Shown: piece after piece, positions 9,515-20,062 of the stretch
Layout: each line of letters opens with the position of its first letter
How positions within the stretch are numbered: position 1 is the first letter of the stretch
Assembly (NCBI RefSeq): GCF_027859075.1
Contig: NZ_JAQIBL010000354.1
Location: 1-33,128 of the forward strand
From: Oceanispirochaeta sp.
Lineage (GTDB): Bacteria > Spirochaetota > Spirochaetia > DSM-2461
Reading direction: 5' to 3'
Length of the DNA: 33,128 nucleotides
Notes under the pieces: model-generated
The model's input: only the letters and a program-made list of their open reading frames with translations
Database searches by the model: none
Told to the model about the DNA's origin: nothing
Program-made: the position numbers and the translations under genes

Positions 9515-9694
9515 CCCTTAGGTCCTATGAAAGTGAACCACGGAGGCTGTAAATCAGCCTTCGTAGGATGTGGACCCTTAGGTCCTATGAAAGAAAACCA
9601 CAGAGGCTGTAAATCAGCCTCTGTAGGATTTGGACCCTTAGGCCATATGAAAGTGAACCACGGAGGCTGTAAATCAGCCTCCGTAGGATTTGGA
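9515..9694 (+). repeat. Three tandem 60-bp repeats with a compensated stem-loop
   Basis: Copies at 9515-9574, 9575-9634 and 9635-9694 are exactly 60 bp each and nearly identical. Each holds a 9-bp stem with loop TAAAT. In copy 3 the arms are CGGAGGCTG and CAGCCTCCG (perfect). In copy 2 both arms carry matching changes (CAGAGGCTG and CAGCCTCTG), which keeps the pairing. Copy 1 has one G-T pair. At the copy 1/copy 2 junction, GGACC and GGTCC form a second short inverted repeat. The block fills the gap between the permease stop and the GldG-like start, and the last bases (GGA) form part of that gene's Shine-Dalgarno. Because 60 is a multiple of 3, the block also reads as 20-residue peptide repeats (period MKVNHGGCKSASVGFGPLG), but base pairing explains the pattern better. 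Confidence 0.9.
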
Positions 9695-9701
9695 GACATC
9701 A

Positions 9702-11138
9702 ATGAAAATAAAACTGAATTTTAAAGCCCGTCATGCCGGTATGGCCGCGATAACAACGGTTGCCGTTTTGGCTGGACTGATCCTGCTCAACCTTGTTGTT
9801 CAGAACATCCCCGCCCAATGGGACATGACCAGAAAGAAGCTTTTTTCCCTGACAGACCAGACAACAAACCTGGTGAAAAGCCTGGACCAGGAAGTCATGA
9901 TCTACCTGTTGTCCAAACCGGGTCAGGAACCAAAAGACATTATGGAGGTCCTGGAACGCTATGCCGGAGCTTCGTCCAAAATCAGTCTGGAACTGGTGGA
10001 TCCCGACAGGAATCCCACTCTGATTTCCCAGTACTCCGAGGAGGGTCAGTCCATCACCAACGGAAGTGTTATCGTTGTCTCGGGAGCCTATTCCAGAGTG
10101 ATCGACCGCATCGACCTCTATAGCATCAGCTACAGCCAGCAGGGTCAGCCCCAGGTTCTGGGAATGACTGCCGAACAGAGAGTCACCTCAGCCCTGGCCT
10201 ATGTCATCAGCGGCAGGGAACCCAGAATTTACATACTGGAGGGGCACAATGAACTGACTCTGGCTAAACTGAACCTTCAGGATGTGGTTTCCAAGGCTAA
10301 TTATTCTATAAAAATACTCAACCTTCTGAAGGTAGGCACGGTTCCCGATGATGCCGAAGTTGTGGTCATTCTGTCACCCCAGCGGGACCTGACAGAAAAA
10401 GAATCTGATGCTCTGGGCTCATACCTTGAAAAGGGGGGAGCCCTCTTTCTCTCCCGGGATCTATCAGGAGTGGACATGAGGAATATGGATGCTCTCCTGG
10501 GCCGCTTTAATCTGATGATAACCCCTGGTGTCGTGATGGAAAAAGATACCAACAGGCTCCTTCCGGGCATGGGGAATAACCCCATAGTTTTTTCTCCCCG
10601 CATGGCTGAAGAGAACCCGGTTACCGACTCTCTCAGAGAAAACAATCTGGATGCCTTTGTCTCGACTGCCATGGGTATCCAGGAGACAGAGATCAGAAAA
10701 AGAAACCTCAAATTCACCTCTCTGCTGAACTCTTCCAACAGCAGCTGGCTCCGGACTGATTTGAATAACCCATCCGAGTTTAGAATGGCGGGGGACATCC
10801 CCGGCCCCATTACAGTTGCCGCCTCCCTGGCCGAAACAAACCGGGATACAGGCAAGGAAGATGGTGCCCGGATCATCCTCCTGTCTAGCGGACAGTCCCT
10901 GTCTGCCCTGCCCGGCCTGGGGCAGATTAAGGCCAATATCGAGTTCTTCCTCAATAGCCTGAACTGGCTGAGCGACCAGGAAGAATCCATGAATATCCCC
11001 AGCAAGAGTCTCTTCAGACTCCCGGTACAGATTAACGCTCTGCAGGCCTGGATCTATGGGGCGATATGTGTTCTCCTCATCCCCTTGTTGATTATCATCG
11101 GCGCCTCTGTGGTCCTTTACAGGAGGAAGCACCTTTGA
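9702..11138 (+). CDS. GldG-like ABC auxiliary protein
   Basis: 478 residues. The ATG at 9702 is chosen over an in-frame TTG at 9690 because GGAG (9692-9695) lies 6 nt before it. A membrane helix is at about 16-38 (AAITTVAVLAGLILLNLVV), then a large periplasmic or extracytoplasmic region with the motif KKLFSLTDQTTNLVKSLDQEV. This is typical of the GldG/ABC-type uncharacterized domain, with its YVISGREPRIYILEGHNE segment. A second helix lies near the C-terminus (about 450-472, IYGAICVLLIPLLIIIGASVVLY). It is thus a two-helix membrane protein with a large external domain, expected to work with the GldA/GldF-like pair. The stop overlaps the TTG start of the DUF4340 gene. Gliding motility should not be assumed from the name. 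Confidence 0.85.
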   Translation: MKIKLNFKARHAGMAAITTVAVLAGLILLNLVVQNIPAQWDMTRKKLFSLTDQTTNLVKSLDQEVMIYLLSKPGQEPKDIMEVLERYAGASSKISLELVDPDRNPTLISQYSEEGQSITNGSVIVVSGAYSRVIDRIDLYSISYSQQGQPQVLGMTAEQRVTSALAYVISGREPRIYILEGHNELTLAKLNLQDVVSKANYSIKILNLLKVGTVPDDAEVVVILSPQRDLTEKESDALGSYLEKGGALFLSRDLSGVDMRNMDALLGRFNLMITPGVVMEKDTNRLLPGMGNNPIVFSPRMAEENPVTDSLRENNLDAFVSTAMGIQETEIRKRNLKFTSLLNSSNSSWLRTDLNNPSEFRMAGDIPGPITVAASLAETNRDTGKEDGARIILLSSGQSLSALPGLGQIKANIEFFLNSLNWLSDQEESMNIPSKSLFRLPVQINALQAWIYGAICVLLIPLLIIIGASVVLYRRKHL

Positions 11139-12508
11139 AAAAGAAGAAACAGCTTCTTCTGGCATTGGCGTCCCTTATCCTTTTGAGCGGGGTTTACGGT
11201 TTAACGCAGCTTCTTTCAAAGCCGGAGGAACTGAATCAGGAGATCCCGGCAGCTCCCAGAGAAAGCTATATCCTCAGTGAAGTCTCTGAGGAGGAACTGA
11301 AGTCAGTGACAATTGAAAATACCATGGGAGCCTACACCCTCATCCTGGGCGAACAGGGGATTGAAGTAAAAGGTGCCTCCGGAATAATCCTGGATCAGCA
11401 GGCTGCTGCCGGATTGACCTACGCTCTGATGAACCTGAGAAGTAGTGAACTCATCGAAAAAGACAGCAGTGATCTGGACCGGTACGGCTTGACGAATCCC
11501 AGGGGATTGCTGACATTGGAGAAGAGGGATGGAAGTAAAACCATCGTCAAAGTCGGAAACAGCAACCCTTCGAAAAGCGGTTTTTATTCTCTGAGAGAGG
11601 GGGAACGCTCGGTATACCTTCTCTCCTCCTACCTCGCCACGTCCCTGTTAAACTCCATGGACCTGCTGCGGGACAGAACTCTACCCCCTGTCAACTTTCA
11701 GGAACTGAAACGCCTGACAATCAGCTCAGAAAGAACGATAGACATCGTGCCCTACTTTCCATATGAAGTCTTATCCAGCACATTGAGTCCTCTGGTCATG
11801 GTGAAACCCTATAGAAGACCGGTGGCGGTTAACACTCAGACCTACTCAAAGTCTATGGAAGCTCTGGCTCAGAACTACCGGATTGTCAGTTTCTACCCGG
11901 ATGACACGGATAAGGATACAGGTCTGAACGATCAGGCCGCAGAGATCTACATGTTGGATTCCACAGGAAATGAAGTCAACATCCAGGTGGGAAACAAGTC
12001 TGCCGAGGGAGACTATTTCTGCCGGGTCAGTCACGTGGCCGGAATCGTCACCCTCCCCTCGGAAGCCCTCACTTTAATCAATGTATCGCCTCTTGAGATG
12101 TCCGACCGCTTTATGCGGCTCATAGGCATCGACAGTGTAAAAGAAGTGCGTGTTGATACACCCACAGAGAGCTGGGTGGGAGGCATTTTGTTTCTGGATG
12201 ATGAGACGGGAGTCTTTACTTTTCAGGGTGAAAGTGTTGAAGAAGATCCCTTCAAGAAGATGTATCAGGAAATCCTCTACCTCCTATTTGAGGGTGAAAT
12301 TCCTGGAGATTTCACTCCATCAGGGCCTGCTCAATTCACTGTGACTTATACAGGTAATGATCAAACTCCCGGCAAGACAACTGCCGAGTGCTACGAATAT
12401 GACCAGGACTATTACGCTGTCAGCATAGACGGCTATCCCCCGGAGTTCCTTATCGGTAAATACCAGATTGAAAGTCTTTTAAATTATTTGAGGGATTTCA
12501 AGGGCTGA
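11135..12508 (+). CDS. DUF4340 domain-containing membrane-anchored protein
   Basis: 457 residues from TTG 11135, which overlaps the previous gene's TGA and has AGGAGG at 11121-11126. The N-terminus (MKKKKQLLLALASLILLSGVYG) is a membrane anchor or uncleaved signal. The rest is an external domain with the DUF4340 pattern: a strand-rich start, LIEKDSSDLDRYGLTNPRG followed by VKVGNSNPSKSGFY, and a related second half that includes IQVGNKSAEGDYFCRV and ends QIESLLNYL. The YGLtnP and vGn motifs are the recognisable family features. In many genomes this domain follows GldG-like genes, as here, so it is probably an accessory subunit of the exporter. No enzymatic residues could be identified. Confidence 0.82.
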   Translation: MKKKKQLLLALASLILLSGVYGLTQLLSKPEELNQEIPAAPRESYILSEVSEEELKSVTIENTMGAYTLILGEQGIEVKGASGIILDQQAAAGLTYALMNLRSSELIEKDSSDLDRYGLTNPRGLLTLEKRDGSKTIVKVGNSNPSKSGFYSLREGERSVYLLSSYLATSLLNSMDLLRDRTLPPVNFQELKRLTISSERTIDIVPYFPYEVLSSTLSPLVMVKPYRRPVAVNTQTYSKSMEALAQNYRIVSFYPDDTDKDTGLNDQAAEIYMLDSTGNEVNIQVGNKSAEGDYFCRVSHVAGIVTLPSEALTLINVSPLEMSDRFMRLIGIDSVKEVRVDTPTESWVGGILFLDDETGVFTFQGESVEEDPFKKMYQEILYLLFEGEIPGDFTPSGPAQFTVTYTGNDQTPGKTTAECYEYDQDYYAVSIDGYPPEFLIGKYQIESLLNYLRDFKG

Positions 12509-12582: not shown

Positions 12583-13770
12583 TCAGGGAGATGTAGCGGC
12601 TACGGTACTGGGAGAAGAGTTCATCCATGCGGCGACTGCAACAAAAGTGTTGTTTCCATAAGTGACAGAACTCCAGTTAGCAGGGACAGGCAAGCTCCTT
12701 GCCGTCCAATTCAAACCATCCACTGAAGTGGCTGCTGTAGTACTATCTTTTGTTACCGAATCACCGGCAATCGAAACAAAAATACCATTTCCATATGTAA
12801 TGGAACACCATTTCGCCAAGGAAGGCATGCTTGTCGTTGTCCAGCTGATACCATCAGATGAGACTGCAGCAGAATCTCTGTTGAATGATACAACATTGAA
12901 TAAACCATTTCCAAATGTTATAGAAATCCCGGGTACCGGTATAGTTCTCGATGTCCAGTTGATACCATCAGGAGAAGTTGCTGCTACTGCACTATTGTGA
13001 GCAACAGCAGTAAATAATCCATTTCCAAAGGCAATAGAGCACCAATAATCAGCAGAAGGCATGGTACATAGTGTCCAGGTCACTCCATCAGTGGAAGTTA
13101 AAGCAGTCGTAGAATTCTGAGCTAAAGTAACGAATAAATCATCTGCAAAAATGATAGGGCACCAGTTTGCAGCGACAGGTAAAGTTCGCATTGTCCAGTG
13201 AATACCATCAGGTGAAGTCGCAGCGTCCGTGCTGTTAGAGGATGCATCATCACCAGCGATTGTTACAAAAACCCCATTGCCGTAGGCAATCGATTTCCAG
13301 TCAGTATCTACAGGAATCGTACTTCCAGTCCAATTCACACCATCAATTGATACTGCGGCCGCTCCTCCGTTGGTAGAGACAGCAACAAATCTCCCATCAC
13401 CATATGTTACAGCTTTCCACCCGGAAGAGCTGGGTAATACACTTTCATTCCAGACCGACCCTGCAGAAATCCAATCCGTATATAATGTTAAGTGCTCATT
13501 CTGCACTGTTATAGTATCACCTGCTTTATAGGAAGTTCCGCTTCCGTCAGGATTAGTGTTCCATCCTGAATAATTGGAACCTGTCTTCATAAGATTTCCC
13601 GAATTACCAAGTACTATTGCCTGATCATCCTGGGAGTAGGCTTTGTTATCAATGGGTACACTACCTGAATCAGCTTCGTTTGAATTATAATTAATTGAAT
13701 AACTTTCTGGCTCTTTACAGGCAGAGAGAATGAAAACGAGGGTACATATGAATATTATCTTTTTTTTCAT
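12583..13770 (-). CDS. Lipoprotein with seven-bladed propeller-type repeats
   Basis: 395 residues. A signal peptide ends in the lipobox LSAC with Cys18, so the protein is probably membrane-anchored and exported. Residues about 24-100 (ending GSGTSYKAGDTITVQNEHLTLYTDW) resemble a Listeria-Bacteroides (Flg_new/InlB B-type) repeat. From about 105 there are seven copies of a roughly 40-residue unit, WkSIaYGNGlFvaVA, then variable residues, then AATSpDGinWTxRtlP. The last copy stops at AATSP and the first begins with WNESVLP, so the termini could complement each other as the velcro closure of a seven-bladed beta-propeller (inference). Propellers of this kind usually bind ligands or proteins; no active site was recognised. 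AAAGGA precedes the ATG. The gene is more AT-rich than its plus-strand neighbours. Confidence 0.8.
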   Translation of the reverse strand: MKKKIIFICTLVFILSACKEPESYSINYNSNEADSGSVPIDNKAYSQDDQAIVLGNSGNLMKTGSNYSGWNTNPDGSGTSYKAGDTITVQNEHLTLYTDWISAGSVWNESVLPSSSGWKAVTYGDGRFVAVSTNGGAAAVSIDGVNWTGSTIPVDTDWKSIAYGNGVFVTIAGDDASSNSTDAATSPDGIHWTMRTLPVAANWCPIIFADDLFVTLAQNSTTALTSTDGVTWTLCTMPSADYWCSIAFGNGLFTAVAHNSAVAATSPDGINWTSRTIPVPGISITFGNGLFNVVSFNRDSAAVSSDGISWTTTSMPSLAKWCSITYGNGIFVSIAGDSVTKDSTTAATSVDGLNWTARSLPVPANWSSVTYGNNTFVAVAAWMNSSPSTVAATSP

Positions 13771-17668: not shown

Positions 17669-20062
17669 ATGAAACAATTCTTGAAAATTATTTTTTTATT
17701 CTTAATTGTCCTTTCCCCGCTGAGAGCCCAGAATTTCGGTATTGCCGTAGAGGATCAGGTTCTGTCAGCTCTCATCAATCCTGCTGCAATGGGTGTGGGA
17801 AACTCCGGCGGGTTCGCCTATATCAACCGTTATTCCACAGACCAGGGATTTCTGAACGATTACGATCTCCTCTTCTCCCTGGGAAATTTGGCCTACAGTT
17901 ACGGAAACTTCTACGGAACTGATAAGCATTTAATAGCCAGCGGATTCCGACTGGCTCCCGGCAGTTACGGGGGAATCAGTTATCAGTGGTATAAAGATTC
18001 CACCGAACAGAAGGGGGGGGGACTGGGCCTTTCCTTTATGATCAGGCCCAGCAATTCTATTTCATTGGCAGTCAAAGGTGTGGATCTAAATAATCAAGCC
18101 TCTACAGAGCTGGGTTTCGGATTCAGACCTCTGTTTTTCAGCAAGAAACTTGCCTCCCGTTTCACCCTGTCCGGAGATGCCCGTATCGAGGACTCCCAGT
18201 GGCAGGAGGTCAGTCTTGGAGCCTTTGTGGAACCAACCGACGGGGTTAAGATATTCAGTGATTACAACTTTGAAAAAGAAGTGTTTCAGCTGGGAGTCCG
18301 ACTCTCATTCTCCTATCTGGAAGTCGGATCTGCAATGGATGCCTCTGGTGACAGAGCCTGGAAAGACGGGACCTTCCAGGCCCTTTCATCCTTTAAAAAA
18401 CAAAGGAGCTTAATGGAACACTCCCTCCATAAAGCCATTGAGTATGATCTTGCCGGAGTTATCCTGGATGCTCCCACAGGGAGATATTCATCGGAGTTCC
18501 CCCGGAAGGAGCTGCGCTCTTTGGCCGATTTTATTCTGGATATGGAAAAGATCAAAAAAGACACCACAGCCAAAGCTATAATTTTTAAAAACCAGGAATT
18601 CAAAACCAATTTTGCAAACCTTCTTGAAATCGAAGAGATCCTGAAGGAAGTCAAGGAGTCGGGGAAAAAGATCTACTTCTACTATGATTCCATAGACAAC
18701 CTGCCCTACTCCCTGGTGGCTTCTGTAGCCGATGAGCTATATCTGAACCCCGCAGGATCTGTGTTCCTCCAGGGTTTCTCTGTCACCAACTTCTACCTGA
18801 AGGATTTCTTTGATCAATGGGGAATCAAGGTTCATAACTTCAGATCTCATGAATATAAGACCGCCTACAACAGCTTCTCCGAATCCGGTATGACAGATGA
18901 GGAGAGGGAAGCTCTTCAGTATCTGTACGATGGACTTCATACCGAAATGATCCGCATGATCAAAGAGGGAAGGGGAAGTAGATTAACAGACACGGCCCAG
19001 TCTCTCATCGACCGGGGACCCTTCATTCATGCCTCCCAGGCCCTGGCGATGGGACTGGTGGATAGACTGACTTACGAAGATGAGTTTGATGCAGTCATGA
19101 AAGAGCGCAAACTGAATGTTTTCAAGGCATCCTTATCAACAGGAAATATGGACTACGACTGGGATGAAGCAGGGCAGCCTGTCATCGCCGTGATCTATGC
19201 CATCGGCGGGATTACCAGGGGAGAAGGAACAGCGGGGAGCTCCATTGGTTCCGATTCCATGGTAAGGGCCATCCGCAACGCCCGCCGGAATCCTCTGGTG
19301 AAAGGAATCATCCTCAGGGTGAACTCGGAAGGGGGCTCATCCCTGGCATCCGACCTGATAGCCCGGGAAGTCGCTCTTTGCCGGATGGGAGAACATCCGA
19401 AACCGGTCGTTGTCTCCATGGGTGGAGCCGCCGCGTCAGGCGGGTATTATATGGCCGTACCTGCCTCACGGATTATAGCTTCTCCTGCCAGTATCACCGG
19501 ATCCATCGGGGTCATTACCATCCTTCCTGAAATCTCGGGACTGATGGAAAAAATCGGCATAGCCGTGGATACGGTTAAAACCGCCGAGAATGCCGAAACC
19601 GGGAATATCCTGAAACCACTGACCAGGGATGAAGAGGAGCAGATCAGGGAATATATTGCCGCGATCTATGACCAGTTCATCACTCTGGTGAGTGAATACA
19701 GAGAATTATCTATTGAAGAAGTAGATGAATCGGCCCGGGGCCGTATCTGGACGGGAACCCAGGCCAGAGAGCGGGGACTTGTCGATATCAATGGTGGTTT
19801 AACGACGGCCTTTGGGGTTATGAAAGAGCTGATCCAGACAGAGAATGAACTCAGGTTGATCGAAATAGTCCCGGGGCGGAATCCCGGATTCCTGGAACGC
19901 ATGGTGACAGAGCCCTTTCTCGGTAGAATCAAGACAGAATCGCCCCTGCCTGAAGATCTGAAAAATCTGATGATGATGTATCAATCCTTGAGTGAATATG
20001 AAGAGGGAGAAGCTCTCTATCTGATGCCTTATACAGCCGAAGAGCTGGGAGTCTCTCCCTGA
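17669..20062 (+). CDS. SppA-type (S49) protease fused to an N-terminal barrel-like domain
   Basis: 797 residues, versus about 620 for E. coli SppA. ATG 17669 is chosen because a signal peptide (MKQFLKIIFLFLIVLSPLRAQ) follows directly. Residues about 21-245 alternate short strands and include SALINPAAMGVGNSGG plus many aromatic/Gly strand pairs. This is the look of a PorV/UPF0164-type outer-membrane barrel, in the place where SppA normally has a membrane helix. Residues about 255-480 are the first S49 half with the catalytic lysine at K397 (HEYKTAY, equal to E. coli K209). Residues about 503-720 are the second half with the nucleophile S590 (AAASGGYY, equal to S409); the Lys-Ser spacing is 193 versus 200. 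The protease is therefore intact. Role: degrading signal peptides or envelope proteins, possibly at the outer membrane (inference). Confidence 0.88.
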   Translation: MKQFLKIIFLFLIVLSPLRAQNFGIAVEDQVLSALINPAAMGVGNSGGFAYINRYSTDQGFLNDYDLLFSLGNLAYSYGNFYGTDKHLIASGFRLAPGSYGGISYQWYKDSTEQKGGGLGLSFMIRPSNSISLAVKGVDLNNQASTELGFGFRPLFFSKKLASRFTLSGDARIEDSQWQEVSLGAFVEPTDGVKIFSDYNFEKEVFQLGVRLSFSYLEVGSAMDASGDRAWKDGTFQALSSFKKQRSLMEHSLHKAIEYDLAGVILDAPTGRYSSEFPRKELRSLADFILDMEKIKKDTTAKAIIFKNQEFKTNFANLLEIEEILKEVKESGKKIYFYYDSIDNLPYSLVASVADELYLNPAGSVFLQGFSVTNFYLKDFFDQWGIKVHNFRSHEYKTAYNSFSESGMTDEEREALQYLYDGLHTEMIRMIKEGRGSRLTDTAQSLIDRGPFIHASQALAMGLVDRLTYEDEFDAVMKERKLNVFKASLSTGNMDYDWDEAGQPVIAVIYAIGGITRGEGTAGSSIGSDSMVRAIRNARRNPLVKGIILRVNSEGGSSLASDLIAREVALCRMGEHPKPVVVSMGGAAASGGYYMAVPASRIIASPASITGSIGVITILPEISGLMEKIGIAVDTVKTAENAETGNILKPLTRDEEEQIREYIAAIYDQFITLVSEYRELSIEEVDESARGRIWTGTQARERGLVDINGGLTTAFGVMKELIQTENELRLIEIVPGRNPGFLERMVTEPFLGRIKTESPLPEDLKNLMMMYQSLSEYEEGEALYLMPYTAEELGVSP

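Follow-up and report, generated by a model that had tools for sequence, protein, structure and literature searches.

SppA is regarded as an enzyme of the inner membrane whose task is to remove spent signal peptides; the canonical protein is a tetramer in the inner membrane and degrades signal peptides once they have been released (PMC9360617). Deletion of sppA in Flavobacterium columnare led to more vesicle formation, and the SppA proteins compared in that work carry a short N-terminal transmembrane (TM) helix (PMC13236525). Within the stretch of DNA analysed here (33,128 nucleotides, hereafter the window) we have identified a gene whose product joins an S49 tandem protease to a predicted β-barrel of the FadL/PorV type (Table 1). 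The protease is known and the barrel type is known; their combination is new, and the location of the enzyme is probably new as well. Our literature search, outside which subscription papers and preprints fell, returned no description of an SppA-barrel fusion.

Table 1. Layout of the fused gene; positions are those of the window
Feature	Residues	Position	Strand	Basis or remark
Whole gene, putative barrel-anchored SppA-type protease		17669..20062	+	single ORF, ATG 17669 to stop 20062; 797 aa plus stop; internal stops 0
Signal peptide	1-20	17669..17728	+	sequence, alignments, only TM-like segment before protease
N-terminal hatch (predicted)	21-47	17729..17809	+	AF2 helices 33-36 and 38-43; FadL/PorV alignments begin at residue 19-20
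FadL-type NPA motif, within hatch	N37-P38-A39	codons 17777-17785	+	N37 invariant in alignment
14-stranded FadL/PorV-type β-barrel (predicted)	48-241	17810..18391	+	AF2, VIA-align, strand alternation
Junction	242-282	18392..18514	+	E. coli SppA match starts at about 253-256
First S49 repeat	about 283-500	18515..19168	+	catalytic Lys K397 at 18857-18859
Second S49 repeat	about 501-735	19169..19873	+	catalytic Ser S590 at 19436-19438
C-terminal tail		19874..20059	+	738-761 low confidence; conserved LMPY-type segment at end

The protease part extends from about residue 253 to 735. Pfam recognises S49 only in the whole protein, in two stretches (PF01343), and NCBIfam likewise covers the S49 part alone, with TIGR00705 (SppA_67K) scoring 312.1 bits against a cut-off of 311.45 over residues 283-729. 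Structural alignment with E. coli SppA by VIA-align gave Z 36.4 over 454 residues at 31% identity. The chain holds two repeats, with the lysine in the first and the serine in the second at the E. coli positions; the first-pass annotation had called the S49 tandem intact with K397 and S590, and both residues are found exactly there and align with those of E. coli Protease 4. The catalytic pair is kept in 67/67 fused rows of our alignment (about 60 distinct genes, since some seven rows represent the same genome via two collections) and in all 36 of the other S49-tandem rows compared. The window protein is thus an SppA-type peptidase, an S49 tandem with a Ser/Lys dyad, and its activity is predicted from sequence.

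The remainder of the protein has no named barrel family by sequence, as no Pfam, NCBIfam or PDB profile matched the N-terminal part and no Pfam family matched residues 1-245. Its signal peptide would be cleaved before Q21, where an A|Q/D boundary is conserved among close relatives; a lipobox cysteine is absent. The AF2 model of the whole protein (25 sequences) has a mean pLDDT of 83.5, with the barrel blocks mostly at 80-90, and shows 14 strands behind the hatch helices. In the type IX translocon entries 8gl6 and 6h3i, chain F, which we take to be PorV judging by its length (the entry titles do not carry the name), aligned with the barrel part at Z 23.3 and 22.7, respectively (rmsd 2.4-2.5, 226 residues; since the model range in these alignments reaches residue 497-500, a few of the paired positions are not part of the barrel), and FadL (2r89) followed with Z 21.4. 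A distant homologue of the barrel (L053, 24% identical), folded alone, gave Z 18-23 with FadL-type chains and 16.4 or less with other barrels (Omp33, OmpG, CymA) in VIA-align, although DSSP merged some strands of this model; Foldseek alone ranked OmpG first, with weak scores, whereas VIA-align ranked FadL/PorV first.

Along the 14 strands, the in/out alternation of lipid-friendly residues was equalled by 0 of 2000 permutations, and the same test found no alternation in strands of the S49 part; strand limits, here and in the conservation comparison below, were taken from the same AF2 model. An NPA-like pattern occurs in 59 of the 67 fused rows, although chance probably accounts for a few of these cases. 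The predicted models thus show the 14 strands, the matching strand order and the NPA-type hatch of the FadL/PorV superfamily, and the N-terminal part of the window protein is predicted to be a small barrel of this type, a fold that agrees with the suspicion of a barrel in residues 21-245 and differs from a soluble domain. The domain could alternatively be no membrane barrel at all, but an addition to an SppA that is soluble or sits in the inner membrane. That no family profile recognises it speaks for such a reading, which we nevertheless regard as very improbable: a barrel was predicted for two distant members, the FadL/PorV matches stand far above those of other folds, the strands alternate, and there is no TM helix besides the signal peptide.

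Sequence comparison was less favourable to one part of the original description, which had spoken of PorV/UPF0164-like strands. The likeness to PorV is borne out by structure, but that to UPF0164 is weak by sequence: a deeper barrel alignment compared by hhalign with UPF0164 of relatives gave P 4e-4, against at least 0.13 for shuffled controls. Membership in UPF0164 (PF03687) was rejected, as the Pfam profile cut-off was not reached and the profile-profile comparison was weak; the window genome has its own UPF0164 gene elsewhere (G000:C171). A SprA_N search of this genome for a link to type IX secretion speaks neither for nor against one, since its controls matched nowhere.

The fusion is neither a matter of chance nor of assembly. 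Four of five same-genus relatives carry the full-length fused gene as a single ORF at 64-72% identity, and other genera and families of the class carry it at 33-45%, some of them in complete, single-contig genomes. In the fifth genome of the genus a stretch of 40 residues (G005:C16:3421-3540) is 53% identical to barrel residues 151-190 and may be a remnant or a contig effect. Among named public genomes the single ORF is found at 24 loci in spirochaetes and Candidatus Cloacimonadota (two run off the contig). In a sample of 296 genomes from the GTDB phylum, about 57 encode an S49-tandem ORF at least 775 aa long (E<=1e-90); the N-terminus was read in roughly 30 of these and is similar in kind. 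A second sample, 59 genomes around a Cloacimonadota centre, yielded full-length fused matches in 51 and truncated or contig-split ones in 4 more. The architecture is shared by many Spirochaetota and nearly all sampled Cloacimonadota. The window genome is a draft of 364 contigs, a circumstance under which two genes might be joined by a sequencing or assembly error; recurrence of the same ORF across the genus, in complete genomes and in two phyla makes such a join extremely improbable.

Most canonical rows have a TM helix that ends 43-48 residues (range 23-53) ahead of S49; two of the sequences counted as canonical in this comparison (L011 and L054) are fused genes cut by a contig end. Any TM-like segment before S49 in the 67 fused rows sits 255-307 residues upstream, at the signal peptide; in the window protein it lies 258 residues before S49 and is the sole one. 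The last barrel strand of this protein ends 42 residues before the S49 start, a distance similar to that of the canonical helix end, and the barrel thus occupies the place of the membrane helix, in agreement with the first-pass annotation, which had noted barrel-like strands instead of the usual helix. A few S49 tandems have no TM-like segment before S49 at all. Canonical inner-membrane SppA (protease IV) requires a TM helix just before S49; since the window protein has a barrel there instead, we class it as an S49 SppA-type protease and not as canonical inner-membrane SppA.

Both ends of the FadL barrel lie on the periplasmic side. An even number of strands (14) and an N-terminal hatch, in FadL topology, would likewise put both ends of the new barrel in the periplasm and the protease under the outer membrane, so that the active site would face the periplasm from the outer-membrane side. 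When conservation was mapped on this topology, the hatch (2.58 bits), the periplasmic turns (2.41) and the protease (2.57) stood against extracellular loops at 1.48 bits. These loops are very short and together amount to 27 residues; the periplasmic turns hardly vary in length. The modelled pattern suits an anchor that cooperates with the protease on its periplasmic side, and it does not point to a receptor or adhesin.

The canonical enzyme is present as well. The window genome encodes it as a separate gene (L002, G000:C136) with a 600-residue open frame, and in about 53 of the 59 genomes around the Cloacimonadota centre a separate canonical gene, whole or in part, is present too. L002 shares the tandem S49 and the catalytic residues with the fused protein but has a TM helix ending 44 residues before S49 and falls on a separate branch of the S49 tree. 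As the fused form usually occurs beside the inner-membrane form, these cells seem to keep one SppA copy on each membrane. A third kind of S49 tandem was noted in Spirochaetia (L019, L027, L029, L112 and L116; about 535-600 aa): these proteins lack both a signal peptide and a TM helix and are probably cytosolic, and the source genome of L112 also carries the barrel form.

Gene neighbourhood gave nothing common across phyla. In the window a TatD-like gene on the same strand ends (stop codon) 32 bases before the fused-gene start. In Cloacimonadota a shared operon lies upstream (L042 8-3660 and equivalents L043-L053), comprising a GntR regulator, an ABC ATPase, a likely permease and a β-repeat protein, the latter two without a Pfam match. 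Elsewhere in the window (9690-12508 and 12583-13770), adjoining ABC_transp_aux and DUF4340 genes form a Gld-like ABC set, and the opposite strand encodes a protein in which a List_Bact repeat and, weakly, a propeller were recognised.

Taken together, we consider it likely that the gene encodes an SppA-type peptidase which a minimal FadL/PorV-superfamily barrel holds on the periplasmic side of the outer membrane. For this protein we infer the outer-membrane location, the orientation, the activity, the oligomer and the substrates. After Sec export and removal of the signal peptide, BAM would insert the barrel; an Omp85 (BamA-type) protein is encoded in the window genome. Both barrel ends would then be periplasmic, and the protease, joined where the membrane helix of canonical SppA would end, would hang at the inner face of the outer membrane. 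Its substrates would most likely be loose peptides and unfolded segments at that membrane, such as signal-peptide remnants and pieces of lipoproteins and outer-membrane proteins; at the inner membrane the same task would fall to the separate canonical SppA. Judged from the family, the likeliest role would be to clear peptides, or to exert quality control, at the outer membrane.

To speak of the barrel as an anchor only is a simplification, because barrels of the FadL type can play active roles. It might be a working part itself, either a peptide conduit in step with cutting or a dock for a machine such as BAM; docked there, the fused protein would be a quality-control protease for outer-membrane protein assembly. 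FadL homologues do serve larger machines, as PorV in the type IX system and BamG next to BamA in Bacteroidota (PMC12578637), and the hatch equals the protease in conservation, while the lengths of the periplasmic turns are fixed. We find a working barrel rather unlikely, however, given the brevity and variability of the extracellular loops and the lack of a conserved BAM or export neighbour gene, the only shared operon being the GntR/ABC set of Cloacimonadota. The protein might conceivably also be a new export or processing device, which the first-pass annotation had offered as its alternative. A protease chamber under a FadL-type barrel, with cutting coupled to peptide passage or to a barrel-assembly machine, combined with SppA on both membranes as a general arrangement among Cloacimonadota and many spirochaetes, is an extended version to which we give only a small chance.

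The history of the fusion was addressed with a tree built from 74 S49 parts. The window protein belongs to a large starred clade of 25 fused rows from Spirochaetia and Cloacimonadota; the remaining fused rows fall into two starred clades, from other families of the phylum, and the single row L020. The tree implies four changes of architecture, at least three of them forced by starred branches. A single S49 clade of all fused proteins was rejected (AU p 2.4e-9), and such a clade without L020 was borderline (p 0.0285). The barrels, nevertheless, are homologous between the fused groups (hhalign E between 8e-25 and 3e-8, against at least 0.17 for shuffled controls). With split S49 clades and homologous barrels, the fusion may have arisen early and been lost later, or the same barrel may have been exchanged repeatedly. 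L065 and L121 (genome G072) are two further S49 tandems, about 540-580 aa long, that lack a barrel; L065 has a signal-like N-terminus, and the tree places it as sister to one of the fused clades.

Should the outer-membrane form be true, peptide clearance or quality control would take place at both membranes in these phyla, and an outer-membrane barrel would act as the anchor of an S49 protease within one chain. Among described systems, E. coli SppA (Protease 4; S49; PDB 3bez, 3bf0) has the tandem S49 fold and the Lys and Ser positions in common with the window protein, but has an N-terminal TM helix where the window protein has a cleavable signal peptide followed by a FadL/PorV-type barrel, and resides at the inner membrane, whereas the window protein is expected at the outer membrane. 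BamG of the Bacteroidota BAM complex (9hiv_F, 9hjm_F; Z about 19 to the L053 barrel) is a FadL homologue with a non-transport use (PMC12578637); unlike the window protein it stands alone, bound to BamA, with large extracellular partners and no protease. FadL (1t16/2r89) and PorV (6h3i_F/8gl6_F) share the 14 strands and the NPA hatch (VIA-align Z 21-23, 213-230 residues), whereas the window barrel has about half their length, extracellular loops that are nearly absent, no Pfam match and a protease in the same chain.
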